Below are positions 14,747 through 41,840 of a stretch of DNA of 64,000 nucleotides, one piece after another. Every line of letters begins with the position of its first letter. The first letter of the stretch is position 1. Source of the stretch: Bacillota bacterium (GTDB lineage: Bacteria; Bacillota; Bacilli; Alicyclobacillales; SLC66); the NCBI GenBank assembly GCA_021846285.1, contig JAJZCB010000003.1, forward strand, positions 1-64,000, read 5' to 3'. The notes under the pieces were generated by a model. The model was not told the DNA's origin, made no database searches, and saw only the letters and a list, made by a program, of their open reading frames with translations. The translations under genes were made by a program, and so were the position numbers.

Positions 14747-15053
14747 TAAAAAATCATGTCAACAGATTCGATGCCTTCTATGGATAGATAGGTGTTTATC
14801 GACGCCAAGGCGAACGCCAGCCACCACCACCACCAGCCGCCGGCCCACCAGCCACCGTAACCACGTCCGGCTCCATAACCTGGAGCCCCTCCCCATGGAC
14901 CATATCGTGGAACTCCATAGCCAGGTCCGTAAGCGGGACCGTAGCCCCACTGCGCCAGAGCCAAATCCAACCTCTCTTGGTCACTGCCTTGCAGTTGCTG
15001 ACCACCTGCCGGTGCTGCCGGTGCGTATTGACGGGGTACGCGCATCAGTACAC
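14728..15053 (-). pseudogene. 3' fragment of the split host gene (Gly/Tyr/Trp-rich protein)
   Basis: About 107 codons remain: VLMRVPRQYAPAAPAGG, then an acidic helix, repeats of the GPGYG type, GGWWAGGWWWWW and a hydrophobic tail. There is no ribosome-binding site at its first ATG. Its frame runs through the att core (codons GTA CTG) exactly as in the 5' fragment at 41,812-41,925, so the two join into one gene of about 142 codons when the element is removed. The composition suggests a spore- or surface-associated protein, which is a weak inference. Its last 19 bases overlap the end of Int1, so the natural C-terminus may also have been altered. Confidence 0.75.
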
Positions 15054-15071
15054 TTTGACAGTCGAAACTAC
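15030..15071. other. attL of the 26.8-kb element
   Basis: The core CAGTACAC lies at 15,046-15,053. The left arm is host sequence and codes for the split host protein. The right arm (15,052-15,071, ACTTTGACAGTCGAAACTAC) matches the inverted attR element arm at 14 of 20 positions. The inferred crossover dinucleotide is AC at 15,050-15,051. Confidence 0.82.
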
Positions 15072-15109
15072 CCCATCCTGGTTGCGCGGGCTCAGTTCTC
15101 TTTTGAGCA

Positions 15110-16246
15110 TTATGTGACCGCCTGGGAGGTTTGGCAGCGTTGCTCTGCCCGTGCTTCGGGGTTGTCCACTATGCGTGAACGAGTCAGGTGTCGACCGAGC
15201 CATATGGACGGACGTTCGAGGTAGCGATAGCCTAAAGTTGCGACGCCTAAACTGAGTGCCACAGTACCGGCCAAGATCAAGTAGGGGGGCACCTCGTGGA
15301 CGAGGAGGTTCATTAGCGTCAGCAAGACGACGAGATGCACCAGATACAGGCTGTACGAGATATGCCCAATGAAGACAAGTGGCCTCATTCGAAGAAACTC
15401 TTGGAACCTCGCCGACGACAAGGCTGCCAAAAGGAAGTAGCACGCTGCAAACATTGTGAACCAATCCGATATCAGATCCCCAGCAAGTCCCCAAGTCCAG
15501 GAAATGCTGTTCCCCCACGTATAGAGGACGAATGCTACCGCCCCCGCAACAACTTTTGTGGTCGTTGCGCGCGTGCGAAGAAACTCGGTCAGCCCAATGC
15601 GGTGCTTGGCCAGCAGTGCCCCCGCGATAAACATGAGCGCGTAGTGCGCGGTATCGAAATAATTCGTGAAGAAATCCACATTGCTCTGATACCGCAAATG
15701 CAGGACAATTCCGCACGCGGATAACAGGAAACCCGTCAGCAAGTTCCAGCGCCAGTTTGCTCTGAGTACGAACCAAATAAGGAGGGGGAAGATGAGGGCT
15801 ATGCGCATCTCCATGACCAAGGACCAAATGACGGGGTCGAAGTATTTCTGATGGAACTGGTCGATCATCAATACCTGATGCAGAATGGGGAGCCAACTGA
15901 TCTGGCCAGTCCAGAGAGAATTGACGCGGATTCTGTGGAAGAGCACCCTCATGACGAGACCAAAAGCGATCGCCGCGATGTACGGCGGGTACAACCTGCA
16001 GAAGCGTCGTATCAGGAAGGTGCGGTAGTTGTGTGGCCGGCCGGAGATGTACGGGAGGGCCAGCACAAACCCGCTTAGGAGAAAAAAGAAGATTACGGCT
16101 TGGTGGCCCGCCAGAAGCACCTGCAAAGGCGAGAAGTATAAGAAGGGAACCGCCGCCCCAATGCCAAGCAAAGTCGTGCTATGGTACAGCACAACACTCA
16201 GAGACGCGAGCCCGCGCAAAGAGTCGAGTTCCTTCAAATGATCCAC
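15110..16246 (-). CDS. Acyltransferase 3 family membrane protein (OafA-like)
   Basis: This protein of about 378 residues has roughly ten hydrophobic segments and the family opening LKELDSLRGLASLSVVLYHS, whose histidine is catalytic in the family. The second motif region is FLIRRFCRLYPPY. Such enzymes O-acetylate cell-surface or exported glycans. The GTG at 16,246 with GGGGGCG upstream gives the typical short N-terminus. It is the leftmost gene of the element, 57 bases from the attL core, and follows the sugar-activation genes, so a role in modifying host surface or virion glycan is plausible. Confidence 0.82.
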   Translation of the reverse strand: MDHLKELDSLRGLASLSVVLYHSTTLLGIGAAVPFLYFSPLQVLLAGHQAVIFFFLLSGFVLALPYISGRPHNYRTFLIRRFCRLYPPYIAAIAFGLVMRVLFHRIRVNSLWTGQISWLPILHQVLMIDQFHQKYFDPVIWSLVMEMRIALIFPLLIWFVLRANWRWNLLTGFLLSACGIVLHLRYQSNVDFFTNYFDTAHYALMFIAGALLAKHRIGLTEFLRTRATTTKVVAGAVAFVLYTWGNSISWTWGLAGDLISDWFTMFAACYFLLAALSSARFQEFLRMRPLVFIGHISYSLYLVHLVVLLTLMNLLVHEVPPYLILAGTVALSLGVATLGYRYLERPSIWLGRHLTRSRIVDNPEARAEQRCQTSQAVT

Positions 16247-16320
16247 TGTGCCCGCCCCCAATCCCAAAACTAGCACTCTGAGACAGGCGTCCGCTGCCTG
16301 GAAGGGCGCCCGACAGGCGT

Positions 16321-16707
16321 TTATTTCCCGGAGTGCGCCTTTCGCGTCGTCGGGTTCACTATGATAGGAGAACTAAATCGCCCCAACCCAACGGCATTAT
16401 AAGCCGCCACAACGTACTGGCCGCTGCGCGGGAACTGCATCATGTAGTAGGGCGCCAATAAGGCAGATGTTGCGGATCTCCCATTGCGTTCTACCACGTA
16501 AGACATCGCCCCGGCAACCGGGTTCCATTGTAATTCAGGAACCCCGTGCCATGTCACCATCCGGACGTGTTGGGGCACGCCCGGCAGAGCTTGGCGCGAT
16601 GCCGCCGCGACACCGAGGCTGGCAATCACCAAAGCAGCCGTAAGGGTCCAGACTGAGAGAATTGCAGCACCAAATTCTCCAGAGCGTGCGAAACGCGGAT
16701 TCCTCAT
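16321..16707 (-). CDS. Small exported fibronectin type III protein
   Basis: This 128-residue protein has a long N-terminal hydrophobic signal or anchor (about residues 14-36) and one fibronectin type III-like domain (PELQWNPVAGAMSYVVERNG to YVVAAYNAVGLGRFSSP). The same domain style is found in the 505-residue surface protein of the element. Its ribosome-binding site AGGAGG overlaps the manC stop, so it belongs to that operon. The function is unknown. It may be an accessory virion or cell-surface protein. Confidence 0.65.
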   Translation of the reverse strand: MRNPRFARSGEFGAAILSVWTLTAALVIASLGVAAASRQALPGVPQHVRMVTWHGVPELQWNPVAGAMSYVVERNGRSATSALLAPYYMMQFPRSGQYVVAAYNAVGLGRFSSPIIVNPTTRKAHSGK

Positions 16708-16722
16708 TGCTTTTGTTCCTCC

Positions 16723-17706
16723 TCATCCCGTCTCTTTGAGCGCGTCCTTGATGGCGTCTGCAGCGGATTTGCCCGTAACTAAAATGCCGTCTCCCGTAGC
16801 CACGACGATGATGTCCTTCAACCCATTGACAACCACAGGCATTGGGAGTTTGTTCACGACGCGCGTTCCCTCGGAGTCGTGCAGCACCGAGTTTCCATCG
16901 GAGTCCACCTCGCCAGCCGAAAGGAACGAATCCCACGTGCCGAGATCCGACCAGTTCCCCAAGTACGTCTTCGCGATGATGTGCGTAGCTTTTTCCGCCA
17001 CGACTCTATCAAAGCTATTTATCGGAAGATCGCCATAATGGTCCGTCATTTCCCGGTAGTGCGTTGGATACCCCAGGGTGCGTAGTATGCCTTTCAGGTA
17101 TCCTACTGAAAAACAGTAAACCCCGGAGTTCCATAGCGCCCCGGCCTGCACCAATCGGATGGCCGAAGCGGCAGAGGGCTTCTCGATGAAACCGCTTACG
17201 CGAATTCCTGCGGCTGTGGCTTCTCCAAGCAATAAATACCCGAACTTCGTGCGCGGCGCATTGGGACGGATGCCCAAAGTGGCCAGGTCTGCGCCGGAGT
17301 ATCGCAGGGCGACTGGGAGTTTTGAGGCTTCCCGGTAAAACTCGTCATCCGCCAAATGGTCGGCAGGGAGAACGAGGATCGTTTCTTCATCCCGCATGTT
17401 GTAATATGACGCGCAGGCCAACGTGCTTAGCGCGATCGCCCCAAAGGTGTCCCGTCGATGAGGTTCTTGAATAATGGAGACCTCACCCAGCTGTTCTCGA
17501 ATGAGGGAGACCTGATCCCCTGCCGCGCAGATCGAGGCCACCCGGTAAAGTCCGGTCTTCCTGAGTTGGCCCCAGATGCGCTGGAGCATGCTGACCGATT
17601 CCCCATTCTCGTTTCGGAATAAGGGATAAAATTGCTTCGGTAGCCGTCCGTTTGACAAAGGCCACAGTCGGCTGCCCACCCCTCCGGAAAGCAAAACTAC
17701 TCTCAT
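16723..17706 (-). CDS. manC: Mannose-1-phosphate guanylyltransferase
   Basis: This 327-residue nucleotidyltransferase makes GDP-mannose from GTP and mannose-1-phosphate. The signature LSGGVGSRLWPLSNGRLPKQF is at the N-terminus, FIEKP near the middle, and a partial beta-helix at the end. The phosphomannose-isomerase domain found in long ManC/AlgA enzymes is absent. The ATG at 17,706 has AGGAGG at 7 bases. An upstream ATG would add 12 residues. It lies in the element beside a polyprenyl-phosphate mannose synthase and a mannosyltransferase, giving a short mannosylation route. Confidence 0.85.
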   Translation of the reverse strand: MRVVLLSGGVGSRLWPLSNGRLPKQFYPLFRNENGESVSMLQRIWGQLRKTGLYRVASICAAGDQVSLIREQLGEVSIIQEPHRRDTFGAIALSTLACASYYNMRDEETILVLPADHLADDEFYREASKLPVALRYSGADLATLGIRPNAPRTKFGYLLLGEATAAGIRVSGFIEKPSAASAIRLVQAGALWNSGVYCFSVGYLKGILRTLGYPTHYREMTDHYGDLPINSFDRVVAEKATHIIAKTYLGNWSDLGTWDSFLSAGEVDSDGNSVLHDSEGTRVVNKLPMPVVVNGLKDIIVVATGDGILVTGKSAADAIKDALKETG

Positions 17707-17849
17707 GCCGCAACTCCTCCTATCGTGTTCTTCGACTGTCAAATGCGACGGCTTCTGAGCAGATAGATTCCTCCGCTCGCGCCGCGATCCCGCGCGGTTA
17801 ATCGAGGACTCACTGACGGCCAGCCACCCTGAACGCCGTCGCGCACGGA

Positions 17850-18947
17850 TTACGGTATTTCACGCACGCCGGAGACCATTCGCGCCCGTTTCTTCCAAAC
17901 CCAGAGGGAGCTTGCCGCGAAGTTCCACGCCGTGGCAGCCCCGATCCCGACTAAGTTCGCCAAGATCAAATTCGCATCCAGAACCCGGACCAATGCGGAG
18001 AGAACGCCCACGTCGAGCACGACACCCACCCCAGACGCCAGAGCGTACTTGCAGGCACGGGTAAGCCACGCCTCCCTTCCGTGGCTCTCTCTCCACGTCA
18101 CGCCGTCATTAAGTGCGAAATTAGAGATCATGGCCGCCAGTGCGGACAGGAACCCGGAAGTTTCCGGTGGCAGGCCCAGAGTCACCAGAAGGATATACAC
18201 AAGAGAGTTCAGCAGGACCCCGGAGATGCCCACGCAGGCAAACACGTAGATCCGGCGATCGTCGGGACTCTCCGCGACCAAGTGGGCGAGATGCCTGGTG
18301 AAGTTCCACTGCTCCTTTAGGGACATCTTAGATTGACCAGTCGCCCTGGGCGCAAACGCATAGGGAATCTCGGCGACGCGCGCGTAATGTCCGCGCGCAA
18401 GGATCTCAATGAGAATCTTCCATCCTATGGGACGCAACGAGATGCCCTCGATGACGTCTCGCCGAAACATGAAATACCCGCTCGTAGGATCGCTCGACAG
18501 GCGTACCCGCTTCAGGGCCGCTTTAGCCATCGTACGCGCGATCCCCGAGATGACCTTGCGCGGGAGCGACAGACCGCCGTCGCTCCCACCAGGGATGAAA
18601 CGACTGGGAATCACCACGTCGTGTCCCGCTTGGATCTGGGCAAACATGGGAAGGAGCATTTCCGGGGGATGCTGCATATCTGCGTCCATAACTGCGACCA
18701 CATCCCCACGGGCCAATTCGAACCCCCGTAGCACGGCGGCGCCCAGGCCCCGGTTATTTGCGCGATGTTCACACCGGATACGCGGATTAGCCTGGGCCAT
18801 CTGTTGCAAGATCTCCTCCGTTTCGTCCGTGCTGTCGTCCACGAAAATAATCTCGTACTCATGATCGCGCAAAGCCCATTTGATCGCCTTGGCGACCTTC
18901 GTCACGTTGTTCCGCTCGTTGTACGTGGGCACAATGATGGATATCAT
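17850..18947 (-). CDS. Polyprenyl-phosphate mannose synthase with GtrA domain
   Basis: This 365-residue fusion has an N-terminal family-2 glycosyltransferase (IIVPTYNERNNV, FVDDSTDET, VMDADMQHPPE, IPSRFIPGG) of the Dpm1 type. A C-terminal GtrA-like domain with four membrane segments follows. Enzymes of this architecture move mannose or glucose from a nucleotide sugar to a lipid phosphate carrier and help it cross the membrane. The ATG at 18,947 follows GGAGGTGGGGAG and starts right at the conserved strand. Together with ManC and the PIG-V-like protein it can supply lipid-linked mannose for extracytoplasmic transfer. Confidence 0.85.
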   Translation of the reverse strand: MISIIVPTYNERNNVTKVAKAIKWALRDHEYEIIFVDDSTDETEEILQQMAQANPRIRCEHRANNRGLGAAVLRGFELARGDVVAVMDADMQHPPEMLLPMFAQIQAGHDVVIPSRFIPGGSDGGLSLPRKVISGIARTMAKAALKRVRLSSDPTSGYFMFRRDVIEGISLRPIGWKILIEILARGHYARVAEIPYAFAPRATGQSKMSLKEQWNFTRHLAHLVAESPDDRRIYVFACVGISGVLLNSLVYILLVTLGLPPETSGFLSALAAMISNFALNDGVTWRESHGREAWLTRACKYALASGVGVVLDVGVLSALVRVLDANLILANLVGIGAATAWNFAASSLWVWKKRARMVSGVREIP

Positions 18948-19070
18948 GCGCTCCCCACCTCCCGCAGCCACGTCCGCGTAGCCCTACTCACACCAAGTTT
19001 CTTAGGGACCACTGGGAACTCCTTCACCTTCTTCATCGCGAAATGCCACTCCCGCTTCCAGCCATTCCAG

Positions 19071-19256
19071 TCATTCTTCCTCGTCATAGTCATCGGAGAA
19101 AACCCCCTTGATAAACCTGACCAACATGGGCGCGAACATCATAGCCATGGCTAGCAGAATGAACCCAGCCACACTGGTGACCAATGCTCCGGCATTGGAG
19201 ACAATATCCCCTGCACTAAATCCAAAAGTCACCCCGCTTTGCGGTATCACATTCAT
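19071..19256 (-). CDS. Small membrane protein, coat-like paralogue A
   Basis: This 61-residue protein has a short polar N-terminus (MNVIPQSGVTFGFSAGDI), one hydrophobic helix (about residues 24-46), a basic patch MLVRFIKGVF and an acidic tail DDYDEEE. It is clearly paralogous to the 59-residue protein at 26,085-26,264 and to the membrane anchor of the 505-residue surface protein just upstream (shared pattern FxxxDIxxNAxALVxxxxGF, then APxLVxxI). The size and single helix recall filamentous-phage coat proteins, but no signal peptide is visible. Structural function is inferred. Confidence 0.75.
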   Translation of the reverse strand: MNVIPQSGVTFGFSAGDIVSNAGALVTSVAGFILLAMAMMFAPMLVRFIKGVFSDDYDEEE

Positions 19257-19383: not shown

Positions 19384-20901
19384 TTAGTCGTTGCGATCCC
19401 GTCCGTAGTCGTAGCGATCAAAGCTCCGTTCGGGGATAACCGGAGGATGATACGGCGCCGGTTCTGCCTCATAGGTGCGAGGGCGCCAGACATCCACGTC
19501 CACCGGATCTGCGAGAACTTCTGAGGACCAATAGGCCTCATCCACCGTGAGCATCATGGCTACGCCGGATTCACTCTCCTTCCCACGCGACAGTCCTGCT
19601 CGAATCAGAGCAACAAGACGCGGAGCCACAAGCAGTGCCAGCATCAAAAGCAAAAACCCTCCAATGCCCCAGACCAGTGCTGCTGCGTTGGTGATAATAT
19701 CGAGGGGCGTGAACGCTAGCCCCAGATGCCCATACTGCGTCTGAGGAGCAGCCGAGATGTAGCCGGGCGCTGACGCGCCCACGCCATACACGGCGTTCGG
19801 GTTGTAGTTGGAGACTGGCAAACTGGAGCCACTGGTCGAACCGATCGGGGTGCCGTTTTGCGTGACGGTATACACGGTGCCCGGTGGGGCGTTGGGCGCA
19901 GGATTCCACGAGATAGATCCGCTTCCTCCGGGGGTTCCAGACTGGGTTACGCCGGTCGGGGCGGGCGCAACGGGCTTCTGCACGGTTACATTCACGGACG
20001 AAGTGAAACCATTCGCATCGGTTGCCATAACGGTATAAGAGCCTGCGGGAACGGCCTCGCTAAACGAACTCCCCGAACTCTGAATGGTCCAAGTGTATGT
20101 GGCCGCAGAGACCGTATAAGGCGCTGCGCCTCCGGAGAGCGAACCGGTGATAACCCCCTGCCCTCCGCTGGCGGTGAGTTGCACTGGGGGGATCGCGGTG
20201 ACAGTCACAGCATTGCTCTGGGCGCCAGTGGCGGAGGCATTCTCCCCCGCCACCGAGTAGGTGTGCGCGCTTAATCCATGCAGACCAGTCACTTTATATG
20301 TCAGCCCGGTTACGCTCGTGGCGATAGGCAGCCCATCTTGATACACCACGTAGCTGGAGGCGTTTGAACTGGCAGTCCAGGACAACGTGACCGCCCCCTC
20401 CGAGGGCGTTCCAGAGAGGGTGGGCGGGGCGGGAGGCAAGGCGCCAAACGTAGCCCAAGAAGACCCGCCGTTAAGAGACATCCGATAAGGCACGAAGAGA
20501 CCTTTCGAAGTATTGTAAGTCGTCCACGGACTTCCAACATTAGTAAAATTGTAGACATTCTCAGTGCCGTTCCAAGGAACAGTCATATTCGCAGAAGTAA
20601 TCGTCGTATATGCAAAAACCCACCCTGCAGTTCCGGGAGTAGCGCTATTGCCAACGAAGATCGAGGTGCCCACATAAGCAGAGGCATTTGAAATACTTAG
20701 AGTCCACGAAGACGACGAAACATAGTCAATGATCGCGAAAGTCGGCGTAGAAGTAGCAGCAAAAGCAGACCCGGCAGGAGAGAATACGAGTGCGACCAAC
20801 AGGGCCAACAAGCCAACAATCCGCTTAGATCCTGTCAGCCACGCCCCTATCAATCTCCATGCAACAATGCCAGCTCCAATTCCCCGCTTATGCGTTCGCA
20901 T
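19384..20901 (-). CDS. Large exported surface protein with fibronectin III domains and coat-like anchor
   Basis: This 505-residue protein has a signal peptide (cleavage probably after GSAFA, near residue 48), then a Ser/Thr/Asn-rich ectodomain with about three fibronectin type III or Ig-like units. One transmembrane helix lies near residues 405-440, followed by a charged tail of about 65 residues, presumably on the inner side. The helix region (FTPLDIITNAAALVWGIGGF) matches the small coat-like proteins A and B. This is the layout of a virion spike that shares its anchor with the coat. The ectodomain is rich in possible glycosylation residues, and mannosyl-transfer genes flank it. Confidence 0.8.
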   Translation of the reverse strand: MRTHKRGIGAGIVAWRLIGAWLTGSKRIVGLLALLVALVFSPAGSAFAATSTPTFAIIDYVSSSSWTLSISNASAYVGTSIFVGNSATPGTAGWVFAYTTITSANMTVPWNGTENVYNFTNVGSPWTTYNTSKGLFVPYRMSLNGGSSWATFGALPPAPPTLSGTPSEGAVTLSWTASSNASSYVVYQDGLPIATSVTGLTYKVTGLHGLSAHTYSVAGENASATGAQSNAVTVTAIPPVQLTASGGQGVITGSLSGGAAPYTVSAATYTWTIQSSGSSFSEAVPAGSYTVMATDANGFTSSVNVTVQKPVAPAPTGVTQSGTPGGSGSISWNPAPNAPPGTVYTVTQNGTPIGSTSGSSLPVSNYNPNAVYGVGASAPGYISAAPQTQYGHLGLAFTPLDIITNAAALVWGIGGFLLLMLALLVAPRLVALIRAGLSRGKESESGVAMMLTVDEAYWSSEVLADPVDVDVWRPRTYEAEPAPYHPPVIPERSFDRYDYGRDRND

Positions 20902-20949: not shown

Positions 20950-22164
20950 TCAGGCCAGAAACACGTGCCCGGCGATCAAGACGGATACGCCGCACAACAT
21001 TGTTCCGGACAGGTAAAGAATGAGCCTAGCTGCAGCTCCATGCCGGGCCAGAATCTGCCCCCAGACCAGAAACATGGGAAACATCGGAATGATCAGGCGC
21101 CCCAAGCTAAAGAAGTAGTCCACCACTGGCCGAGGACCGCCCACGATGGAGAGCATTCCCGTGGCCGGATCCGACAGAGGCACGGCCACCCAAATCACGG
21201 AGAACCAAAACCACGACCGCGGCACTCGCTTGAACATCACCGCTAGAGACGCGACGGCCAGCACGGCGAACGCGGCCTCCAGAGAGTAGTAGATATGGCC
21301 GTAAAGCCCGTTGTGCTGCCACAGCCAAGGCAGGCTGGTAAACCCGTTGACCAGCGTCACGAAGGGTAGCGCGAAATGGCGCCCCCACAGCTGTTCCTCT
21401 GTGGTGAAGAGAAAGGGGTTCCCGAACCGAATCCACAGATAGGCCAAGTAGGCACCTAACGCTGCGGGGAGACTCGCCAGCGCCACCCATCCTCGCTTGT
21501 TCCATCTCCCGGTTTCGCGCCGTTCCCGCCACAACTCTGCCAATAGCGGGACCGCGATCAAGCCGCCCTCGTTTCTCGCTAGGACCGCCAGAAAGCCTAG
21601 GATCGCCGCCAAGTAATTACGGCGGGCGCGTGCAGCCAGCAAGCAACCCACGAGAAGCACAACGAACAGGCTTTCGGTATAGAGGGAGGGAAGAAACACG
21701 GCGAACGGATACAAGGCATACAGCCACACCCCCAGGCGCGCCGCACGATCATCCTTGGCGATCCCCCGGAAGAGACGGTACAAGAGGATGAAGGAAAGAA
21801 CCTCGCTGGCGTTGGCGATCAGGAGTCCGGAGGTGGTGAGAGAGAGCCCAAGGACATAATGGGTGGCCGCCATAGCCATCGGGTAGAGCGGGAAAAAGGG
21901 AGTGTCTTGCCGGATATAGCCCTGAGAAGCAATAAAGTGATACCACCCTGAGTCATCGTGAACCATTGTCCAATCCAGAGCAATGTAGGGCAGAGACGCC
22001 AATGGGAGGTGATGAGCCAATAAATACAGGGCAGAACCTGCCCCGATGACGGCCCTCGAAAGCAGGTACATCCCTACGGCGAACGTCACATCACGCCGGG
22101 AAATCGGGACCATGGTCCGCGCTGGCTCCCTCGCATTTAACGGGAGCGCGACCTCAGGCATCAT
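20950..22164 (-). CDS. PIG-V-like polyprenyl-phosphate mannosyltransferase
   Basis: This 404-residue multispanning protein of the GT-C fold has the luminal-loop motif HDDSGWYHFIASQGY and then FFPLYP, typical of PIG-V/PIG-M type mannosyltransferases (PF04188-like). It probably transfers mannose from a lipid carrier to a protein or glycan outside the membrane. The ATG at 22,164 follows AAGGAG at 7 bases and overlaps the end of the preceding gene by 11 bases. Its place next to the spike gene and upstream of Dpm1-GtrA and ManC suggests that the spike or coat is the acceptor. Confidence 0.75.
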   Translation of the reverse strand: MMPEVALPLNAREPARTMVPISRRDVTFAVGMYLLSRAVIGAGSALYLLAHHLPLASLPYIALDWTMVHDDSGWYHFIASQGYIRQDTPFFPLYPMAMAATHYVLGLSLTTSGLLIANASEVLSFILLYRLFRGIAKDDRAARLGVWLYALYPFAVFLPSLYTESLFVVLLVGCLLAARARRNYLAAILGFLAVLARNEGGLIAVPLLAELWRERRETGRWNKRGWVALASLPAALGAYLAYLWIRFGNPFLFTTEEQLWGRHFALPFVTLVNGFTSLPWLWQHNGLYGHIYYSLEAAFAVLAVASLAVMFKRVPRSWFWFSVIWVAVPLSDPATGMLSIVGGPRPVVDYFFSLGRLIIPMFPMFLVWGQILARHGAAARLILYLSGTMLCGVSVLIAGHVFLA

Positions 22165-22525
22165 TAGAATTCTCCTTCCCCAAAGGACCACCGATAAAGG
22201 GCCACGACGTGCCGGGGCTCCGAACCACGCGGGCCCGGACGGGCAGATCCCCTTCGGCCACGAGATAGTAGCTATGCCGGCCAATGGCCAGATGCTGCTC
22301 GCGCAACTCCTCGCGTCTCTGCCTGCTCAATAGATCGCGATGCACTGCCCAATGCTTGGTGGCCCGCAGGATGTCTACCGCCTGGATGAGCTCCCTGTCA
22401 TACTGGTGGCGCCGGATTCGCGGAACCAGAACGCGCATCGGAATGCTCGGGTAGAGATAGGCCAAACGCAGCGGGTCTTTCTGCTTTTCGCGCGTTGCGG
22501 ATGTCGGACGGGTTGATCCAGCCAC
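22154..22525 (-). CDS. Unknown basic protein following the Zot-like ATPase
   Basis: This 123-residue Arg-rich soluble protein starts at a GTG with a strong AGGAGGAG site 6 bases upstream. It overlaps the last 128 bases of the Zot-like gene in another frame. I do not recognise a domain. The C-terminal part (AIGRHSYYLVAEGDLPVRARVVRSPGTSWPF) looks like beta structure. It is co-transcribed with the putative assembly genes. Confidence 0.65.
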   Translation of the reverse strand: MAGSTRPTSATREKQKDPLRLAYLYPSIPMRVLVPRIRRHQYDRELIQAVDILRATKHWAVHRDLLSRQRREELREQHLAIGRHSYYLVAEGDLPVRARVVRSPGTSWPFIGGPLGKENSNDA

Positions 22526-23171
22526 TGGGCTCTCCTCCTAACTGGATGGCGTCCCGTTCTCGGGCCGCAGCCTCGCGCTGCCGATCGATGATCCGCTGCA
22601 GCAACTGAATCTGGTCGCGCTCCGTCTTCGGACTGGGGAACGGGTAGAGCATCTGATCCGTATCGTAGAGCTCCAGAGCGAAGAGCTGCTTGACCCTTGC
22701 CCACGATATTCGCGCCGTTCTCAACTGGCGACCCCATTGGCCAAATCTCTTGTCCTGAAATTCGTACATGTCGAGATAGATGGCGCGATTCTGACTCTTA
22801 CGGACGTGAATGAACACTTCCACAAGGTCCAAGATGCGTGAATCGAGGTTCGCGCCGACCGGGTTAATGAACACGTGGACCGCGCGCAGCTTCCGGGTCA
22901 TATTGAAGATTTGTGTGGCAAAGGTGTTACGGGTCCAGAGGCGCCGGTCGTATTGCGTCTGAGCCTCATCCCAAATGATTACGCTCCCACGCGCGTCAGC
23001 CACCTCCAGCCAGCGATCGGCGCGATCGAACGGCGTTGCGCCCGCCAGGTCGTAGTTGGCAAAGATCCTTGCCTCCCCGCCACTGCGAATCCGCCAATAG
23101 TGGGCCAATACGGAAGCCATCAGCGTTTTACCGGCCCCAAGGCCGCCCTCAATGAGAATGAAATGGGGCAT
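22398..23171 (-). CDS. Zot-like (filamentous phage pI family) P-loop ATPase
   Basis: This 257-residue ATPase starts directly with a Walker A (IEGGLGAGKT, residues 7-16) and has Walker B VIIWDEAQ at about residues 64-71. An Arg/Asn sensor region (MTRKLRAVHVFINP) follows. N-terminal Walker A plus the DEAQ box is characteristic of Zot/pI morphogenesis ATPases within the FtsK-HerA group. Unlike classical pI, no C-terminal membrane segment is visible. A small upstream gene (23,543) has one instead. The start overlaps the previous stop by one base (TAATG). The likely role is virion assembly or extrusion. Confidence 0.72.
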   Translation of the reverse strand: MPHFILIEGGLGAGKTLMASVLAHYWRIRSGGEARIFANYDLAGATPFDRADRWLEVADARGSVIIWDEAQTQYDRRLWTRNTFATQIFNMTRKLRAVHVFINPVGANLDSRILDLVEVFIHVRKSQNRAIYLDMYEFQDKRFGQWGRQLRTARISWARVKQLFALELYDTDQMLYPFPSPKTERDQIQLLQRIIDRQREAAARERDAIQLGGEPSGWINPSDIRNARKAERPAAFGLSLPEHSDARSGSANPAPPV

Positions 23172-23530
23172 TAGCGTCTCCTCCGTTGCGGCGGGGCCTG
23201 GGAAGACTCGGGCGCGACTCGAGGAGCGGGCGGAATGACCGCCTCAATGGTGCGCAGAAACACGCCAGGGTCCGCGTGACTTTGGGCGCTGTCCACGATC
23301 CAGCGGATCAAGTCACTGTAGGGATGCTTGCCTTTGTGCTGGTCACGATATTCTTTGTGCACATCCCGCATCCCCAGATAGTTCAGGTACGCGATGCCGC
23401 GCAGCTGCTCCGTGCTCAGTGGTTGCGCGTGAGGCTCCATGAACTGCAGGACCTGACGCAGGCCGTCCACGGAAGGGGTGGAGGTGAACAGGTCCGCCCC
23501 GATCACCTGCTGCAATCGATCCTCTTGCAT
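23171..23530 (-). CDS. Unknown soluble protein upstream of the Zot-like ATPase
   Basis: This 119-residue, mostly helical protein has a Pro/Ala/Arg-rich C-terminus ending in RRRR. It has a good site (AAGGGGG) and a TAATG junction with the ATPase gene. No family is recognised. Tight coupling suggests a partner of the ATPase. Confidence 0.65.
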   Translation of the reverse strand: MQEDRLQQVIGADLFTSTPSVDGLRQVLQFMEPHAQPLSTEQLRGIAYLNYLGMRDVHKEYRDQHKGKHPYSDLIRWIVDSAQSHADPGVFLRTIEAVIPPAPRVAPESSQAPPQRRRR

Positions 23531-31585: not shown

Positions 31586-31640
31586 TCCCACCACCCTTCC
31601 AAATTCGTCTCCACTTCGAACAGATCTGGCTGCGTGAGAA
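31410..31640. repeat. Duplicated segment, copy 2
   Basis: This is the partner of 30,590-30,815. Here the adenine methyltransferase reading frame is intact, so this copy is probably the original. Confidence 0.75.
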
Positions 31641-32608: not shown

Positions 32609-34253
32609 TTTTCTCACCCCTCCCTCCTGGCGCCACCCAGATCTCCGCCGCGTCCATGAGCCACACGCCCTCACTTTGGGCCATGAGCGCGCGCAGTGCT
32701 TCTCCAGCAATAGCGCGGGCGGCGGGCGGTGGCACGTCATTGCCAATGCGCTCCCGCCATTTCGCGTCCGACTTTCCGACGAGTTGGAACGGCGTGCCAT
32801 CCGGCAGGTGAGTAGGAAAGCCTTGGAGCATCGCCAACTCGTATGTGGTGAGTGGGCGGTGCCAGGTTCCGTCTTCCGCGATGGCCACCCAGACGCCATT
32901 ATCGGTGTCGTCAGGAATGCGCGGGTCGGCGACCGCTCCCGCACTGGCGTGGATGTCTCCGGCGCCAATCACAGTTCTGGCGGGTTCATTCCATCCTTGA
33001 ACACCCATTGTTCCTGAACGCGGCGCGCAACCAAGACGCGGATCCGCGATTGACGCCGATGTGTTCATGATCCTGGCCGCACCCCGAACTGTCGGCGCAG
33101 CCTTTTCCCAATCCAGCACCCCGTAGCCACCTGGATGTCCTTGCGCCTTCACGCGGGGGTCTGCCACGCTGATCAGCCCGTTCGCGACGTGTGTTGCGCC
33201 AGTCACCGTGCCAGACGGCTCCGTCCAGTGCGTCAGTCGATAGTGCGTGGTGTGGCGTGTCTTTTCGTCGTTGTTTTCGAAACGCGGATCGGCAATTGCA
33301 GCTGCCGCGTTGCTCCGCCCCCACCCCGCAGCGCCGGTCACAGCGCCACTTGGTTCGTTCCAAGCCTGCACACCCATCGCCCCAGCTCCTCGCGGTGTGT
33401 ATTCCAAGCGATACGCCGTGTGGTCGATCCGCTGCAGGTCACGCCAGTCCCCACCGGCCGGAATCAGTGCGAGTCGCACCCACGTTTTCCACGCGAGGCG
33501 CGGCATCCGGTGCAGCGGCCCGCCCGCCGGATCATCAGGCATCGGGAGCGGCCCAATCACCTGGCCGATGGCGCGTACACGCTGTTTGGTCGGGAGACGC
33601 ACGAAGCTGTCCAGTTTTTGCGGCAGTCGCGCCAAGAGCAGATAGCGCCTGCGATGCTGTGCGAGTCCGCCCAGCTCACCGCAGTCGTGGGTCCGGTCGT
33701 CAAACATGTATCCAACGCGGGTGAGCATCGCGCGAATCTCCGAGAGAAGCGCGTTGCCGCGTGTTTGGATGCGCGGAACGTTCTCGAACAAGATCAACGA
33801 CGGCAGGTCGTCCTCGAACGCCTGGATCGTCAGTCGCAGTCCACGCACCGTGAGGCGATTGAGCGCTTGATACTTGTCTCCAGCGGCGCATTGCTGCGGC
33901 AGGAGTCCGGAGAACCCCTTACACGGTGCAGACAGAAAGACCACATCCGGTGTCTCCCCATCCGTCGCACGCCAGATGTCGTAAGACGTGGCTTCCGTCC
34001 AGTCTGCTGGAGGCTCCTGGCCGTGGAAAGCGACGTAATCCTCACGCGCGAACAGGTCCATCTCAACGGCCGGCGCACTCGTGATGCGTCGGAAGTCCTC
34101 ACACGCCTGCGGATCTACGTCGATCCCGCCCAGCGTCTCGAAATGGCCCATCCGACCCCCGAATTCCTCGCGGGCTTGCTGAAATCCCAGCGCCCCGCCG
34201 CCAATGCCTGAAAACAAATGGAGCACGGTATATATACGTTCTGAGTTAATCAT
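32589..34253 (-). CDS. C5-cytosine DNA methyltransferase with internal repeats
   Basis: This 554-residue enzyme has motif I LHLFSGIGGGALGF, catalytic motif IV SAPCKGFSG, motif VI FENVPRI, motif VIII QHRRRYLLLA and C-terminal motifs IX-X (LTTYELAMLQGFPTHL, RIGNDVPPPAARAIAGEAL). Between motifs VIII and IX it carries four copies of a unit of about 30-40 residues with W-N-E-P, T-V-x-G-A and ending in A-D-P-R. Units of this type occur in some long phage methyltransferases. The ATG at 34,253 follows GGGAGGG. No cognate nuclease is seen. Confidence 0.85.
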   Translation of the reverse strand: MINSERIYTVLHLFSGIGGGALGFQQAREEFGGRMGHFETLGGIDVDPQACEDFRRITSAPAVEMDLFAREDYVAFHGQEPPADWTEATSYDIWRATDGETPDVVFLSAPCKGFSGLLPQQCAAGDKYQALNRLTVRGLRLTIQAFEDDLPSLILFENVPRIQTRGNALLSEIRAMLTRVGYMFDDRTHDCGELGGLAQHRRRYLLLARLPQKLDSFVRLPTKQRVRAIGQVIGPLPMPDDPAGGPLHRMPRLAWKTWVRLALIPAGGDWRDLQRIDHTAYRLEYTPRGAGAMGVQAWNEPSGAVTGAAGWGRSNAAAAIADPRFENNDEKTRHTTHYRLTHWTEPSGTVTGATHVANGLISVADPRVKAQGHPGGYGVLDWEKAAPTVRGAARIMNTSASIADPRLGCAPRSGTMGVQGWNEPARTVIGAGDIHASAGAVADPRIPDDTDNGVWVAIAEDGTWHRPLTTYELAMLQGFPTHLPDGTPFQLVGKSDAKWRERIGNDVPPPAARAIAGEALRALMAQSEGVWLMDAAEIWVAPGGRGEKNAPSRI

Positions 34254-34273
34254 GTTCTTGCCCTCCCACCCAC

Positions 34274-34660
34274 TCACCACCACATCATGACGCCACCATT
34301 TGACGGATCGACCCATAATTGCAACGTGCGATCATACGATGTGCTCCGCTTTCCCCGCAATACCACCTCCACGACCCGCCATCCCTCGTATGACCCGCTC
34401 GCTCTCAGATCGATGACATCCACCACGTTTCGCGCCCCATACCGAGCGTCCATGATGGCGATCTCTTGGGCATAGCGCGTTGTCCAGTGCACATGGTAGG
34501 CCGTGATGGCTGCCACAATGCACAAAAGCATCGCGAGAGGGGGAAGCCAGAGGAGAGGCTTATTTGATCCCCAAATAAAGTCGTCTCTTAAGAACATCAC
34601 TACAATGAGTGAAACGAAGCCGGAGAAAATGCCCACACCGATCAAGAAACCCAGCAACAC
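34274..34660 (-). CDS. Two-helix membrane protein, unknown
   Basis: This 128-residue protein has two N-terminal membrane helices (LLGFLIGVGIFSGFVSLIVV and LLWLPPLAMLLCIVAAITAY) and a soluble C-terminal domain ending VDPSNGGVMMWW. The GTG start lies after GAGGGAGG. It is located among early genes of the element. Confidence 0.6.
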   Translation of the reverse strand: MLLGFLIGVGIFSGFVSLIVVMFLRDDFIWGSNKPLLWLPPLAMLLCIVAAITAYHVHWTTRYAQEIAIMDARYGARNVVDVIDLRASGSYEGWRVVEVVLRGKRSTSYDRTLQLWVDPSNGGVMMWW

Positions 34661-37182: not shown

Positions 37183-37404
37183 TCACGCGCCTGCTTCGGA
37201 TACTTCCTCTTTCCAATCCTTGAGACTGTAGTGTAAAATATCGGTAATAGAAGCAATATCCTCGACCCGAAGCGTCGTGTCCTTCGTGAGGTCGTTTAGG
37301 ATCGCGGCGGCGTAATTTAAGCGGTAGACGACCCGAGCAAGGGGATGCAATTCGCCCCCTGAAGCCTCCTTTGGATGGGTAGGAAACTCCTCATGATCAG
37401 GCAC
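37183..37404 (-). CDS. 73-residue unknown early protein
   Basis: The GTG at 37,404 has GGGGAGG upstream. The C-terminal half is helical (VVYRLNYAAAILNDLTKD, ITDILHYSLKDWKEE). It overlaps the end of the Cro-like gene by 8 bases, so it is the second gene of the leftward operon. Confidence 0.55.
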   Translation of the reverse strand: MPDHEEFPTHPKEASGGELHPLARVVYRLNYAAAILNDLTKDTTLRVEDIASITDILHYSLKDWKEEVSEAGA

Positions 37405-37612
37405 GGTCTCTTTCCTCCCCTCGCGCATCGGCGAAAAACAAATAATCGACCGAGACGCCAAAGTAATTCGCGAGCTTGGCTTGCAAGTCTCTGCGGGGGA
37501 ACCGCTCCCCATTTTCAACCATGGCATATGTCGTTCTCGGAACACCTAGATCGGCTGCCACCTGCGTCTGGGTCCTCTTTCCCCTTAATCTTGCGATCCG
37601 GACATTCTTCAT
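37397..37612 (-). CDS. Cro-like HTH (Xre family) regulator
   Basis: This 71-residue protein is almost entirely an Xre HTH (RIARLRGKRTQTQVAADLGVPRTTYAMVENGERFP). It is the first gene of the long leftward block and is divergent from the cI-like gene. A 39-bp palindrome lies between them. This is the standard layout of a lysis-lysogeny switch, in which Cro opposes the repressor. Confidence 0.82.
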   Translation of the reverse strand: MKNVRIARLRGKRTQTQVAADLGVPRTTYAMVENGERFPRRDLQAKLANYFGVSVDYLFFADARGEERDRA

Positions 37613-37759: not shown

Positions 37760-38125
37760 ATGGAACAGTTTGGGGATAAAATCATCAAGTTGCGCGCAAT
37801 CAAAGGACTCTCGCAACAAGAGTTGGCGGACAAAATAGGCATTAAACGAAGTTCTTTGGGAATGTATGAAAGAAATGAACGCAAGCCAGGATTCAATGTG
37901 CTCAGGAAATTCGCGAATTACTTCGCCGTCAGTACGGATTATCTAATGGGATTGAATGATGATTCATCTGGAGAACTGGAATATCAAGAATTGCTTGCGG
38001 AGGCGACTGCCAAAGCAGAGGAACTAAAAGCCTCCGCTCTACTCCGGGCCCAAGCGGGAAGCAAAGAAAGTCTACGGGACCTGATTAAAATTCTCGACGC
38101 CTTTAAGCGCGATATGGAGGATTAA
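37760..38125 (+). CDS. cI-like repressor (Xre family)
   Basis: This 121-residue protein has an N-terminal HTH (IIKLRAIKGLSQQELADKIGIKRSSLGMYERNERKP) and a short helical C-terminal oligomerisation region. It lacks a LexA-type protease domain, so induction is probably by the ImmA-like protease encoded next, as in ICEBs1. GAGGGGAGG lies upstream of the ATG. Confidence 0.85.
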   Translation: MEQFGDKIIKLRAIKGLSQQELADKIGIKRSSLGMYERNERKPGFNVLRKFANYFAVSTDYLMGLNDDSSGELEYQELLAEATAKAEELKASALLRAQAGSKESLRDLIKILDAFKRDMED

Positions 38126-38126: not shown

Positions 38127-38786
38127 TTGCGGGCGACCATAGAGGCCAAGGCACTCGAAGTGCTCTTTACCTGCGGCATTCCCTTGTCGAATACACTGGA
38201 GACTAATCCCATTTCCCTGCGCACTATATTCGCCCGCTACCCTCACCTTATTCTGCGATTTACGGATCTCTCCCCCACAACCGATGGGGCATACGTCAGG
38301 AATGAAAGGGCCCACGCGATCTACATAAACCGAAAGCGCCCCTATGTACGGCGACGATTTTCACTAGCGCACGAGTTTGGCCATTACATCCTGGGCCATC
38401 CCTCGAGTACGTCTACATTCGGATCTCGGAACCACTGGACAGAGGTACAAGCCAATCAATTCGCAGCTTTTTTACTTATGCCCCGCGAGCTGGTGAAATT
38501 ACTGAACAGGCGAATGTGTTCGATCGCGGAAATCGCGCTCTGGTTCCGCGTTTCCGAGCTGGCCATGGCGATCCGTATGGACGAGTTGGGACTGCGAGCC
38601 TTCGAGACCCGGCTGGTGCGCTTTCGCTATCAACGTCTCCGCCAGAGCCTCCCTGCCAGGAAGGGTGGCGAGAAGTGGCTACAGGAACGGATCATTCGGG
38701 ATTTGCGGTCCTTGGACTTTGAAACTCGAGCCCGAGTGATCCGCGCCTTTCTGCCGCTTCAAGGCAAGGAATGCGCCAAGGACTAA
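38127..38786 (+). CDS. ImmA/IrrE-type anti-repressor metallopeptidase
   Basis: This 219-residue protein has the zinc-protease motif SLAHEFGHYILGH and the downstream glutamate region WTEVQANQFAAFLLMP, as in ImmA (DUF955). By family knowledge it cleaves the adjacent Xre repressor and switches the element from lysogeny to excision. A TTG start lies one base after the repressor stop, with GGAGGATTAAT upstream, so the two are coupled. Confidence 0.86.
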   Translation: MRATIEAKALEVLFTCGIPLSNTLETNPISLRTIFARYPHLILRFTDLSPTTDGAYVRNERAHAIYINRKRPYVRRRFSLAHEFGHYILGHPSSTSTFGSRNHWTEVQANQFAAFLLMPRELVKLLNRRMCSIAEIALWFRVSELAMAIRMDELGLRAFETRLVRFRYQRLRQSLPARKGGEKWLQERIIRDLRSLDFETRARVIRAFLPLQGKECAKD

Positions 38787-38818: not shown

Positions 38819-39529
38819 GTGTGCAGTGAATTGGCAAGACGAAAGAAGCAAGATTGGAGAGACCTCGTTCTAAGTTTGGGTGTCTTGGGGTCTATCTATG
38901 TAGGGTTTTCCGCGTGGGCACATGTGCATCCACATTGGCTAGCGCTCACTTATGGGTCACTACCTTTGGTCGCGTCGATCGTCCTCATGTTTCTCATAGA
39001 CAAACTGATCCGTTCTCTCACTCCGAGCAAAACAACTCAGCGCGGTTCCGAGCGCGTCTCAGCTGCGCCCCGACCAACTGGATCCCGTTCCGTGCGCCCA
39101 GATGAAGAAATACTGCGGGCTCCATTGGACGGCTTGAGTCCCTACGAATTTGAACACTTGCTGGCGCTCTATTTCCGGGACCATGGCTACCGAGTTGAGG
39201 AGAGAGGCGGCAGCGGTGACGGGGGCGTGGACCTGGTTCTGATCGACAAAGAATCCGGGGAGAGAATCGCGGTGCAAGCGAAACACTGGGCAGACCACAG
39301 GCTTGTCGGCCCTGATATCGTCAGGGCGCTCGATTCCTCCCGAAAGAACACCAAACCTGCCTGCTACACCTCCTGGCTAATTACTACCTCTGATCTCACA
39401 CAACAGGCGCGCAGAGAGGCAGATAGAAACCACATGCAGTACTGGCATGGTGGGCTCCTGAGCAGCGAGCTTTCTAAGTGGCCGAAGTGGCAGCCACCCG
39501 GAATGAAATCCAACCGCCGCCCGCGATGA
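38819..39529 (+). CDS. Membrane-anchored Mrr-like restriction endonuclease
   Basis: This 236-residue protein has two N-terminal membrane helices (DLVLSLGVLGSIYVGFSAWA and LPLVASIVLMFLIDKL) and a C-terminal Mrr-type PD-(D/E)xK domain (LSPYEFEHLLALYFRDHGY, GGSGDGGVDLVL, RIAVQAKHW). The active-site acidic residue in GGVDL and the QAK motif are intact. Such proteins are often antiviral nucleases that act on foreign or modified DNA. Here it sits in the lysogeny module, which suggests defence of the host against competing phages. The target is unknown. Confidence 0.8.
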   Translation: MCSELARRKKQDWRDLVLSLGVLGSIYVGFSAWAHVHPHWLALTYGSLPLVASIVLMFLIDKLIRSLTPSKTTQRGSERVSAAPRPTGSRSVRPDEEILRAPLDGLSPYEFEHLLALYFRDHGYRVEERGGSGDGGVDLVLIDKESGERIAVQAKHWADHRLVGPDIVRALDSSRKNTKPACYTSWLITTSDLTQQARREADRNHMQYWHGGLLSSELSKWPKWQPPGMKSNRRPR

Positions 39530-39606
39530 GGGCATTTTGAGGCGCATATGGGTTTACCGCGATTGACGCGGAGAATACATAAGATTACTATAGAATCACA
39601 AGGCGG

Positions 39607-39912: not shown

Positions 39913-40250
39913 ACATGAGGAAAGAACCGCTTCCGTTCGATCCGGACGATGATGCTTCGGTGGCAGAATACTTCGATCATCACTCGGGCGACGAGTTGGA
40001 ATTGGAAGAGGTCGAGGTCGAACTGGTTAAACCACTCGAAATCACAAGTGTTTCTGACGAGGAGTTTAAGAAGATGCGTCGACGCTCTGAGGAGGCCGAA
40101 TCCAAGGGCTTGAACATCATCACGGTGCGCCTGTCTGACGACGACCTGGAAGGCCTCAAAGATTTGGCGAGCGACCAGGGTGTTGGCCATACAACGATGG
40201 CACGCATTGCGATCCATCGTTATATCGCGGCAGCAAGGAAAGCCAAATGA
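39909..40250 (+). CDS. BrnA-like/ribbon-helix-helix antitoxin candidate
   Basis: This 113-residue protein has an acidic N-terminal half and a C-terminal ribbon-helix-helix-like segment (NIITVRLSDDDLEGLKDLASDQGVGHTTMARIAIHRYI). It probably neutralises the preceding toxin and represses the pair. A toxin-antitoxin pair beside the integrase would stabilise the element. GGAGGAGG lies directly before the ATG. Confidence 0.65.
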   Translation: MNMRKEPLPFDPDDDASVAEYFDHHSGDELELEEVEVELVKPLEITSVSDEEFKKMRRRSEEAESKGLNIITVRLSDDDLEGLKDLASDQGVGHTTMARIAIHRYIAAARKAK

Positions 40251-40394
40251 GTGACCGAGCAAAATAGAGCGCCTCGGTAGCGCAAGAGGAAATCAAAAAA
40301 AAGGCGTCGGACCGACTATCGTGGCGCGTCGGCACGCTTAAGAATCGGTCAAACGGATTATCCGTGGGGCAAACCAATGTATAGGAAGGATGCG

Positions 40395-41792
40395 ATGTGG
40401 GTGAGAGCAGCCCTGTACCTGCGCGTGTCCACGCAGGAGCAGGCCGATGAGGGGTTCTCTCTCGCGGCCCAACTTGATCGTCTGAGAGCCTACTGTGACA
40501 GCCAGGAATGGCTGATCGCCGAAGTCTATACAGACGAAGGGGTCAGCGCCAAAACTGCCGATCGTCCCGAACTCCAACGCCTCTTAGCCGATGCAGCGGG
40601 AGGCCGGATCGATCTCGTCTTGGTGTACAAGCTGGATCGTCTCACGCGCAGCGTGGTGGATCTCTACGATCTGCTCCAGACGTTTGACCGCCATAAGGTG
40701 GGCTTCAAGTCTGCCACGGAAGTCTTTGATACCACCACGGCCATCGGGCGCCTGTTTATGACGCTCGTGGCGGCACTGGCTCAATGGGAGCGGGAGCAGC
40801 TCGGCGAGCGCGTTTACTTGGGCATGCGACAGAAGGCGCTCGAGGGGAAACTCGTGGTTCCACGCGCACCGTATGGCTACCGCATCATGGACGGAAAACT
40901 TATTCTTGAATCCACAGAGGCCGAGATCGTGCGGCGAATCTTCGCGCGCTACTTGGACGGGGCAGGAGCAGTGCGGATTGCGCGAGAGCTGCAGGGAGAA
41001 GGTGTCAGACCTCCAGGCGGGCACGTGTGGCGCGGAAACGTGATTCTATACATGATTCACAACCCGATTTATGCGGGTCTGAGCCGGTGGGGTTATCGGA
41101 CTGCTGGAGGTGCCCGGAAGAGCGGCCGGGAAGTAACGGGGGCCGGCGAGCATGAGGCGATCATCGACGAGCTGACTTTCTCCCGAACGCAGGATACTGT
41201 CTCCAGTCGCCGCAAGGTGTTCCCGCGGGCCGGTACGGGGCGCTACCCGCTGACAGGTCTTCTGTACTGCTCCTGCGGCGGCCATATGACCGGAAACGCT
41301 AGAGGGAGTCGGTCATATTACCGTTGCCTCAATCGCATCATCTGTACCTCTGGATACGGTGTGCGTCAGGAACGCCTTGAGGCCGCGCTGATTTCGCACT
41401 TAGCTTTGATCGCGGAGACACCCCCTGACCACGCGGCCAAGCTGCCCGCGCGAAAGACAACTACTAACCCCGACAAGCTGAGGGAGGCGCTCAAAGTACG
41501 CAAGCAGCGCCTGTGGGATGCCTACGAAGCCGGAGAACTTGAGATGGAGGAATTAAAAACCCGCCTAGCGCGCCTGCGCAATGAGGAAGAACGGATCTCG
41601 CAGGAGGCCTCCCTTGATGGAGAGGAAGAGGCTGACGCAAGGAAAACGGAGCGGCGCCGTACACTCGTCCAGGATCTCTTGTCCCAGTGGGAACAATCGA
41701 CAGCGCAGCGACGCAAAGAATTGGTGCGAGCTGTCGTGGAGCGCATTGATGTCACGGGCCCGAACAGTATTGAGGTAAGGCTCAGAGACTAA
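40395..41792 (+). CDS. int: Large serine recombinase Int2, integrase of the element
   Basis: This 465-residue recombinase has the nucleophile serine in YLRVSTQEQADEGFS, the catalytic region YKLDRLTRSVVDLYDLL, a recombinase domain, a zinc ribbon (YCSCGGHMTG and a later CLNRIICTSGYG) and a coiled coil. The ATG at 40,395 has AGGAAGG at 5 bases. The stop is 22 bases from the attR core, the usual place of attP beside the integrase. It should catalyse integration at the host-gene site and, with a directionality factor not identified here, excision. Confidence 0.9.
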   Translation: MWVRAALYLRVSTQEQADEGFSLAAQLDRLRAYCDSQEWLIAEVYTDEGVSAKTADRPELQRLLADAAGGRIDLVLVYKLDRLTRSVVDLYDLLQTFDRHKVGFKSATEVFDTTTAIGRLFMTLVAALAQWEREQLGERVYLGMRQKALEGKLVVPRAPYGYRIMDGKLILESTEAEIVRRIFARYLDGAGAVRIARELQGEGVRPPGGHVWRGNVILYMIHNPIYAGLSRWGYRTAGGARKSGREVTGAGEHEAIIDELTFSRTQDTVSSRRKVFPRAGTGRYPLTGLLYCSCGGHMTGNARGSRSYYRCLNRIICTSGYGVRQERLEAALISHLALIAETPPDHAAKLPARKTTTNPDKLREALKVRKQRLWDAYEAGELEMEELKTRLARLRNEEERISQEASLDGEEEADARKTERRRTLVQDLLSQWEQSTAQRRKELVRAVVERIDVTGPNSIEVRLRD

Positions 41793-41798
41793 ATTCGC

Positions 41799-41840
41799 GT
41801 AGTTTTGCGCATCACAGTACACCCTGATTTGTAACCCGCT
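41799..41840. other. attR of the 26.8-kb element
   Basis: The core CAGTACAC lies at 41,815-41,822. The left arm (41,799-41,818, GTAGTTTTGCGCATCACAGT) belongs to the element and is the inverted partner of the attL right arm. The right arm is host sequence inside the 5' fragment of the split gene. The crossover dinucleotide is AC at 41,819-41,820. Confidence 0.82.

Follow-up and report, generated by a model that had tools for sequence, protein, structure and literature searches.

A 26.8-kb integrated element with an inovirus-like virion module and a DnaD/DnaC replication module in a relative of Alicyclobacillus

Filamentous phages are taught as small single-stranded DNA (ssDNA) viruses tied to rolling-circle replication. 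According to the International Committee on Taxonomy of Viruses (ICTV), Inoviridae have genomes of 5.5-10.6 kb, rolling-circle replication and Gram-negative hosts (PMC8491893). A 2019 inovirus survey gives, in its accessible portion, a range of 5-20 kb, and asks for one or two membrane segments in its pI clusters (PMC6813254). Enterocloster inoviruses are described, in the text available, as 6.5-8.5 kb long with one of 16 kb, and as secreted in vitro and in vivo (PMC10061712). The window analysed here is a 64,000-bp stretch of contig JAJZCB010000003.1, from a bacterium related to Alicyclobacillus. It carries a single insertion of 26,769 bp at 15046-41814 which is probably an integrated temperate virus of inovirus-like type.

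The limits of the element are set by empty sites in two congeners; these bear out the preliminary description, which had proposed an integrated element of 26.8 kb at 15046-41822. The first congener (G012) matches the window through 15053 and resumes at 41807, and the two stretches adjoin in its empty site (L013 3815-3828). The identical site is also unoccupied in the second congener (G011), which bears a related element on another contig (C236), beside a different serine recombinase. The 8-mer CAGTACAC is common to both element ends; no common string of 9 nt or more was found there. The genes between these ends are listed in Table 1. Pfam matches confirm the proposed lysogeny side of repressor, ImmA and serine integrase, and the DnaD/DnaC replication side is confirmed by NCBIfam (DnaD, 32.1 bits) and PHROGs (phrog_50, 3.4e-39). 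The proposed structural side, made of tiny membrane proteins, a Pro-rich secreted protein, a spike and a Zot-like ATPase, is likewise upheld by sequence, hydropathy and Pfam.

The putative ATPase links the element to inoviruses. It matches Pfam Zot with 22.8 bits (cut-off 20.3) and the Zot-like phrog_197 at 6.4e-06. An AlphaFold model (predicted local distance difference test, pLDDT, 76.4; predicted template modelling score, pTM, 0.74) was the check proposed for this protein, and its top two viral fold matches are Zonular occludens toxins of Inoviridae sp. (7.7e-09 and 2.7e-08). In the PDB, the Zot domain 2r2a ranks third (Z 10.6, root-mean-square deviation 4.1, 163 aligned). Third among the viral fold matches comes AMDV2_16, from an uncultured virus that presumably belongs to an acid-mine-drainage virus set.

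Relatives of this Zot are found in Alicyclobacillus hesperidum DSM 12489, Desulfosporosinus metallidurans OL, Peptococcaceae bacterium CEB3, Desulforamulus aeronauticus DSM 10349, the metagenome-assembled genome DX2.bin20 and further IMG/VR contigs; Moorella phage MCACPph1 is the sole match among 50,697 phage records at E 0.01. The window Zot sequence alone retrieved no relative among viral contigs, whereas the alignment-based search did. With the window's genome included, the Zot profile is matched in 6 of 398 Bacillota genomes, in 7 of 59 of the order (two weakly) and in 9 of 398 of the class (two weakly); in the class of G125, a set without the window's genome, it is matched in 2 of 63, both previously found. 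Two weak matches (G454:C188:2599-2871, with two internal stops, and G442:C43:87692-87892) may be remains or chance. A 'Zot' in G007 (E 2.5e-4) was rejected by eye as a spurious antisense overlap with another reading frame. Three Zot copies are present in G408 (contigs C3, C18 and C29), two of them at contig ends.

A search of relatives for the same gene order, also proposed earlier, shows that the module o154-o87-o124-o119-Zot keeps its order in Alicyclobacillus, Moorella, Desulfosporosinus, Desulforamulus and other Bacillota. Among the 14 loci outside profile building, eight have the full order (G125, G198, G377, G408C3, G453, G733, G804 and G799b); two contigs end at Zot, and four loci (G441, G799a, L065 and L066) are without one or two of the five genes in the open reading frame (ORF) list. 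The conserved order extends beyond the virion side. Integrase, Mrr, repressors, methyltransferase, DnaD, DnaC, coats and Zot follow one another in G125, a closed chromosome, as well; in G198 the order matches from Mrr onward, among the genes listed, and much of it is present in the Moorella record.

The same virion module is paired with Rep_1 or Rep_trans, prim-pol/D5, RepO, or DnaD/DnaC. One 10.5-kb contig (L018) has only the virion module and Rep_1 (210 bits), and contigs of 11.1 and 12.5 kb (G799a and G799b) have Rep_trans (156 and 136 bits). In G733, prim-pol/D5 is found and the genes spread over ~16 kb; a 783-amino acid (aa) primase-like ORF in G804 resembles, by eye, the scanned ORF of G733. 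The DnaD, RepO or DnaC type occurs in the window, Moorella, G441, G125, G198, G456, G457 and G408. These elements include those of Moorella (20.0 kb), the window (26.8 kb), G125 (~28 kb, gene span) and G441 (18.0 kb between host-gene halves; DnaB_2 18.2 bits, below the cut-off). The exception among larger elements is that of D. aeronauticus (G176), which measures 22.8 kb between 95-bp repeats and has a weak Rep_trans match (21.0 bits, cut-off 29.6) and a putative single-stranded-binding protein, named by eye. The Pfam scan of G377 gave no nameable replication initiator.

In a Zot tree of 18 rows (midpoint root, with long-branch warnings) there are two groups, supported at 100/100 each. One contains Rep_1 (L018), the other contains the Rep_trans-like element, and DnaD types occur in both groups. 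Since the replication types in the tree are spread in this way, each group has undergone at least one exchange of the replication module with the virion module kept. The lineage appears to be inovirus-like, to swap its replication modules and to have become larger than is usual.

GC skew was tried as a marker of ssDNA. It is 0.233 for the L018 contig and 0.009 to 0.07 for the others; when only the module is counted, values for the other nine lie between -0.049 and 0.088. The marker was dropped, since the Rep_trans-like G176 is also low (0.07) and skew thus fails to separate replication modes. Searches for repeats at the ends of relatives found none of at least 12 within the ranges covered for G125, only 12-bp strings at chance level in G733, G804 and G377, and no terminal repeat in L018, L019, L020 and G799a. 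The ends of G799b have 31 bp in common within a repeated stretch, which only suggests a circular molecule.

According to the preliminary description, the element lacks genes for capsid, portal, terminase, relaxase and type IV secretion. None of these families is matched in Pfam by 35 of the 36 listed element ORFs, nor in PHROGs by 20 of the 36; an 87-aa ORF was compared with NCBIfam and PHROGs only, and the scans covered the 36 listed ORFs rather than shorter or overlapping ones. The hallmarks of Caudoviricetes (HK97 capsid, terminase, portal) and of integrative conjugative elements (relaxase, type IV secretion) are both missing from these matches. No hidden capsid, terminase or relaxase turned up, and the ATPase passed the Pfam Zot cut-off; some PHROGs labels, given below, stand against the claim.

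Several findings nevertheless weigh against an inovirus-like virus. No virion was seen. No rolling-circle Rep (Rep_1, Rep_trans) is present in the window's genome, and no transmembrane segment is found in any of 11 Zots (Kyte-Doolittle, 19-residue window, threshold 1.6); classical inoviruses differ in both respects. Only 4 of 10 Zot family members (window, L025, L027 and L066) reach the Pfam cut-off. RecA/Rad51-type ATPases tie with 2r2a (Z 10.9 to 9.8) and fold comparison alone is not specific; the fold therefore gives the class, and sequence and context give the name Zot. None of the four single-span proteins of 52, 59, 61 and 71 aa has a match to a known coat family in Pfam or PHROGs. In PHROGs, phrog_7440 'major tail protein' matches residues 151-238 of the 505-aa spike (7.1e-08) and the 128-aa ORF at 16321-16707 (1.7e-04), and o154 draws tape-measure labels (best 6.6e-04). 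These 'tail' labels are read as a common Ig/Fn3-type domain and hydrophobic low complexity.

An integrated element that is not viral, and that serves to assemble a surface appendage or to export DNA in a pilus-like or conjugation-like manner, would account for the many surface proteins and glycosyltransferases and for the lack of a visible virion; Zot-type ATPases also fall in a wider FtsK/HerA-like group. This is improbable: the Pfam scans match no relaxase or type IV secretion family, repressor, ImmA and integrase form a phage-like lysogeny side, and the small relatives consist of a coat module and a rolling-circle Rep only, which is an inovirus layout.

DnaD/DnaC, ImmA, methyltransferases and serine integrases are common in tailed phages of Bacillota, and the 10.5-kb relative makes do with virion module and Rep_1. 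The window could then hold two elements, side by side or one within the other: a small inovirus, and lysogeny and replication genes left by a decayed tailed phage. However, a single empty site covers the full length of the element, and the overall gene order recurs in G125, from Mrr on in G198 (among the genes listed) and largely in the Moorella record, so that two elements are quite unlikely. A pleolipovirus-like enveloped virus of Bacillota, the other possibility raised in the preliminary description, would fit the tiny membrane proteins, spike, NTPase and a genome above the inovirus size range, but is very improbable, as the named viral models that best match the ATPase model are inovirus Zots, in a comparison that included no pleolipovirus protein directly, and the small relatives have inovirus-type layouts.

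If the element is an inovirus-like temperate virus, its integrase would excise it as a circle after induction. DnaD and DnaC would load the host helicase, and the element would be copied as double-stranded DNA while coat-like proteins wait in the membrane. Zot would dock through the tail-anchored o124 and o119 instead of a membrane segment of its own, and would drive DNA out through the membrane as the coats wrap it; o154, o87 and the Fn3-type spike would close the virion tip. The mannosylation and acylation cassette would decorate the virion, or alter the host surface against superinfection. The DNA packaged in this model may be single- or double-stranded.

Zot and the membrane-anchored o124 may represent a split pI. 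The predicted structure of o124 has a small barrel, a long helix and an anchor (best PDB Z 4.6, best viral E 0.028); nothing is concluded from it past small barrel and anchor. It is possible, though rather unlikely, that this is a filamentous lineage packaging double-stranded DNA, in which the inovirus extrusion machine no longer depends on rolling-circle synthesis of ssDNA. A soluble Zot, docked on a separate membrane anchor, would then export genomes of 16-28 kb made by theta replication. If the packaged DNA is indeed double-stranded, the finding would weigh far more. Whether extrusion needs ssDNA becomes directly testable in cultured carriers of relatives: A. hesperidum DSM 12489, D. metallidurans OL, D. 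aeronauticus DSM 10349 and Moorella sp.

Table 1. Genes and attachment (att) cores of the element, in window coordinates
Feature	Position	Strand	Basis and remarks
Left att core CAGTACAC	15046..15053		C-terminal part of host gene (14728-15045) to its left
Membrane acyltransferase (Acyl_transf_3)	15110..16276	-	Pfam; relatives in G011 (71%), G441 (33%)
Secreted 128-aa protein, Fn3-like stretch	16321..16707	-	Sequence; phrog_7440 1.7e-04; no Pfam match
Mannose-1-phosphate guanylyltransferase-like nucleotidyltransferase	16723..17742	-	NTP_transferase 103 bits
GT2 glycosyltransferase fused to GtrA/DPMS membrane domain	17850..18971	-	Pfam
Coat-like protein of 61 aa, paralogous to the 59-aa protein	19071..19256	-	Single-span by hydropathy
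505-aa secreted spike, C-terminal coat-like membrane anchor, pIII-like by anatomy	19384..20901	-	Sequence, relatives, hydropathy
PIG-V-like membrane mannosyltransferase (start chosen by hand)	20950..22164	-	Pfam 21.5 bits, just below cut-off 22.4; relatives in G011, A. hesperidum, G441, G453
123-aa protein, 'YLYPSIP' motif	22154..22525	-	By eye and BLAST: like ORF adjoins Zot in relatives; no Pfam or PHROG match
Zot/pI-type ATPase without transmembrane segment	22398..23171	-	Pfam, PHROGs, fold, hydropathy
o119, conserved soluble partner directly upstream of Zot	23171..23530	-	Relatives
o124, small predicted beta-barrel and C-terminal transmembrane anchor	23543..23917	-	Hydropathy, predicted structure; relatives
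o87, membrane protein with KWW at end	24040..24303	-	Hydropathy; relatives
o154, multi-pass hydrophobic, pVI-like by anatomy	24300..24764	-	Hydropathy; relatives
o47, 47-aa membrane protein	24757..24900	-	Hydropathy; relatives
o379, secreted Pro-rich protein	24916..26055	-	Sequence; relatives in A. hesperidum and G441
coatA, coat-like 59-aa protein	26085..26264	-	Single-span by hydropathy; seen in relatives
Coat-like 71-aa membrane protein	26261..26476	-	Single-span by hydropathy; seen in relatives
coatB, 52-aa membrane protein, candidate major coat	26476..26634	-	Best conserved: 98% to G011, 82% to A. hesperidum
RemA-like DNA-binding protein	27785..28090	-	Pfam 95.6 bits; between replication and virion genes
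DnaC-like helicase loader	28094..28945	-	phrog_50, 3.4e-39
DnaD-domain replication initiator	28827..29786	-	NCBIfam 32.1 bits (cut-off 24.95); Pfam DnaB_2 21.8, just below 22
D12-class adenine methyltransferase	31582..32460	-	Pfam
C5 cytosine methyltransferase	32589..34316	-	Pfam
Helix-turn-helix (HTH) repressor/Cro-like	37397..37612	-	Pfam scan
HTH repressor	37760..38125	+	Pfam scan
ImmA-like peptidase M78	38127..38786	+	Pfam
Mrr-type nuclease, two membrane segments	38819..39529	+	Pfam, hydropathy; Mrr-like gene also in relatives
Large serine integrase	40377..41792	+	Resolvase and Recombinase domains (Pfam)
Right att core CAGTACAC	41815..41822		N-terminal part of split host gene to its right

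The ratio of non-synonymous to synonymous substitution (dN/dS) between the window and G011 is 0.04-0.15 in the 13 genes computed. The slowest-evolving is coatB (0.040), and the highest dN (0.398) is that of the 505-aa spike, the pattern to be expected if the coat is conserved and the receptor binder variable. The C-terminus of the spike resembles the 59- and 61-aa coats. No match to o119 was found in Pfam, PHROGs or NCBIfam, and 1 of 10 members of its family has a PHROG match (E 0.066).

The PIG-V-like gene follows Zot in G011, A. hesperidum, G441 and G453. GT2 accompanies it in the first three, and G011 and G441 have the acyltransferase as well. Of seven other elements inspected on the Moorella side, six (G125, G377, G408C3, G456, G457 and G459, but not G176) have a different GT2 homologue, placed between coats and spike. 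Glycosylation of virion or receptor may thus belong to the life cycle; gtr/oac seroconversion sets are a parallel to this cassette.

Other differences between the elements concern single genes. At the position of the RemA-like gene, between DnaC and coats, Moorella-side elements have a sigma-region-4-like HTH protein. Moorella-side elements (L004 18301-19119, G125, G198, G377, G408C3, G456 and G459) also have a tyrosine recombinase downstream of Zot, and a serine integrase at the opposite end where this is visible. In the window, a BrnT/BrnA-like toxin-antitoxin pair at 39607-40250 scores below Pfam cut-offs for both genes. Outside the element, self-similar matches ~250 bp apart at ~52371-56212 in the G012 alignment suggest a tandem-repeat gene.

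The insertion disrupts its host gene between GVL and MRVPR, leaving parts at 14728-15045 (C-terminal) and 41807-41944. The C-terminus is W-rich and GY-rich. This one gene is the target of three elements: insertion is in its N-terminal third in the window, near its C-terminus in G441 and, judged from the one visible end, near its C-terminus in A. hesperidum. No family match was found in NCBIfam or Pfam, and these databases do not support a sporulation-like (YjcZ) identity, suspected for the gene and its neighbour. SPbeta in spsM and other interrupters of sporulation genes are, in the parts of the reports available, comparable cases, in which a host gene is likewise divided by a provirus with a site-specific recombinase (PMC4191935, PMC5595907); the bacterium of the window is related to spore formers. 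The host gene of the window differs in having no family match. Sporulation-linked excision as in SPbeta is only a suggestion, and a sporulation role of the host gene would be a guess.

Among the closest known systems is Moorella phage MCACPph1 (OR602863.1, 19,989 bp), for which no publication was found in the open-licence literature. It shares the order serine integrase, Mrr-like nuclease, HTH repressors, DnaD-like, coats, Fn3 spike, o154, o87, o124, o119 and Zot, and its Zot is 31% identical to that of the window over 70%. It differs in a G39P-like loader in place of DnaC, a lytic transglycosylase and a second (tyrosine) recombinase. In GenBank its Fn3 proteins are annotated as 'Hoc-like head decoration' and 'central tail fiber J'. 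A 4,027-bp IMG/VR record (L069) is a 100% slice of the CEB3 element (L026 8796-12822), from o87 through the tyrosine recombinase; the virion module and phage-like genes of that element reach far beyond it, which suggests that detection tools clip such viruses.

The 'new virus lineage' of the preliminary description stands in part. The element is larger, is differently replicated and has a Zot without a membrane segment by hydropathy; inoviruses of Bacillota (described in the accessible parts of PMC10061712 and PMC6813254), the Moorella record in GenBank and the clipped IMG/VR record were already known. Within the open-licence literature searched, supplements excluded, elements of 18-28 kb with a Zot module and DnaD/DnaC are apparently undescribed. 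Like the window element, Enterocloster inoviruses are, by their description in the portion of the source available, integrated in Bacillota (PMC10061712). The 2019 survey shares, as far as its accessible text goes, candidate families of monoderm hosts and wide exchange of replication genes, but its pI clusters were required to show one or two membrane segments, where the window Zot has none by hydropathy (PMC6813254).

With Inoviridae and Tubulavirales the element shares a Zot/pI ATPase, small membrane coat-like proteins, a pIII-like spike, a pVI-like protein and integration with a repressor; it differs in its 26.8 kb, DnaD/DnaC and Bacillota host (PMC8491893). At 26,769 bp, more than double the size usual for filamentous phages, it exceeds both 5.5-10.6 kb (ICTV) and 5-20 kb (2019 survey), while relatives range from 10.5-kb contigs upward. 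Its host genome falls in the same order as A. hesperidum, outside the Gram-negative range: G428 of the order set and G458, from which L024 derives, agree in contig position and E-value. A rolling-circle initiator, missing in the window, is present in L018, G799a and G799b and weakly in G176. Membership of Inoviridae proper fails on size, replication and host; with its Zot/pI ATPase, and with the outsized filamentous phage of the preliminary description supported by sequence, fold, gene order and relatives, the statement that the element works like an inovirus stands.

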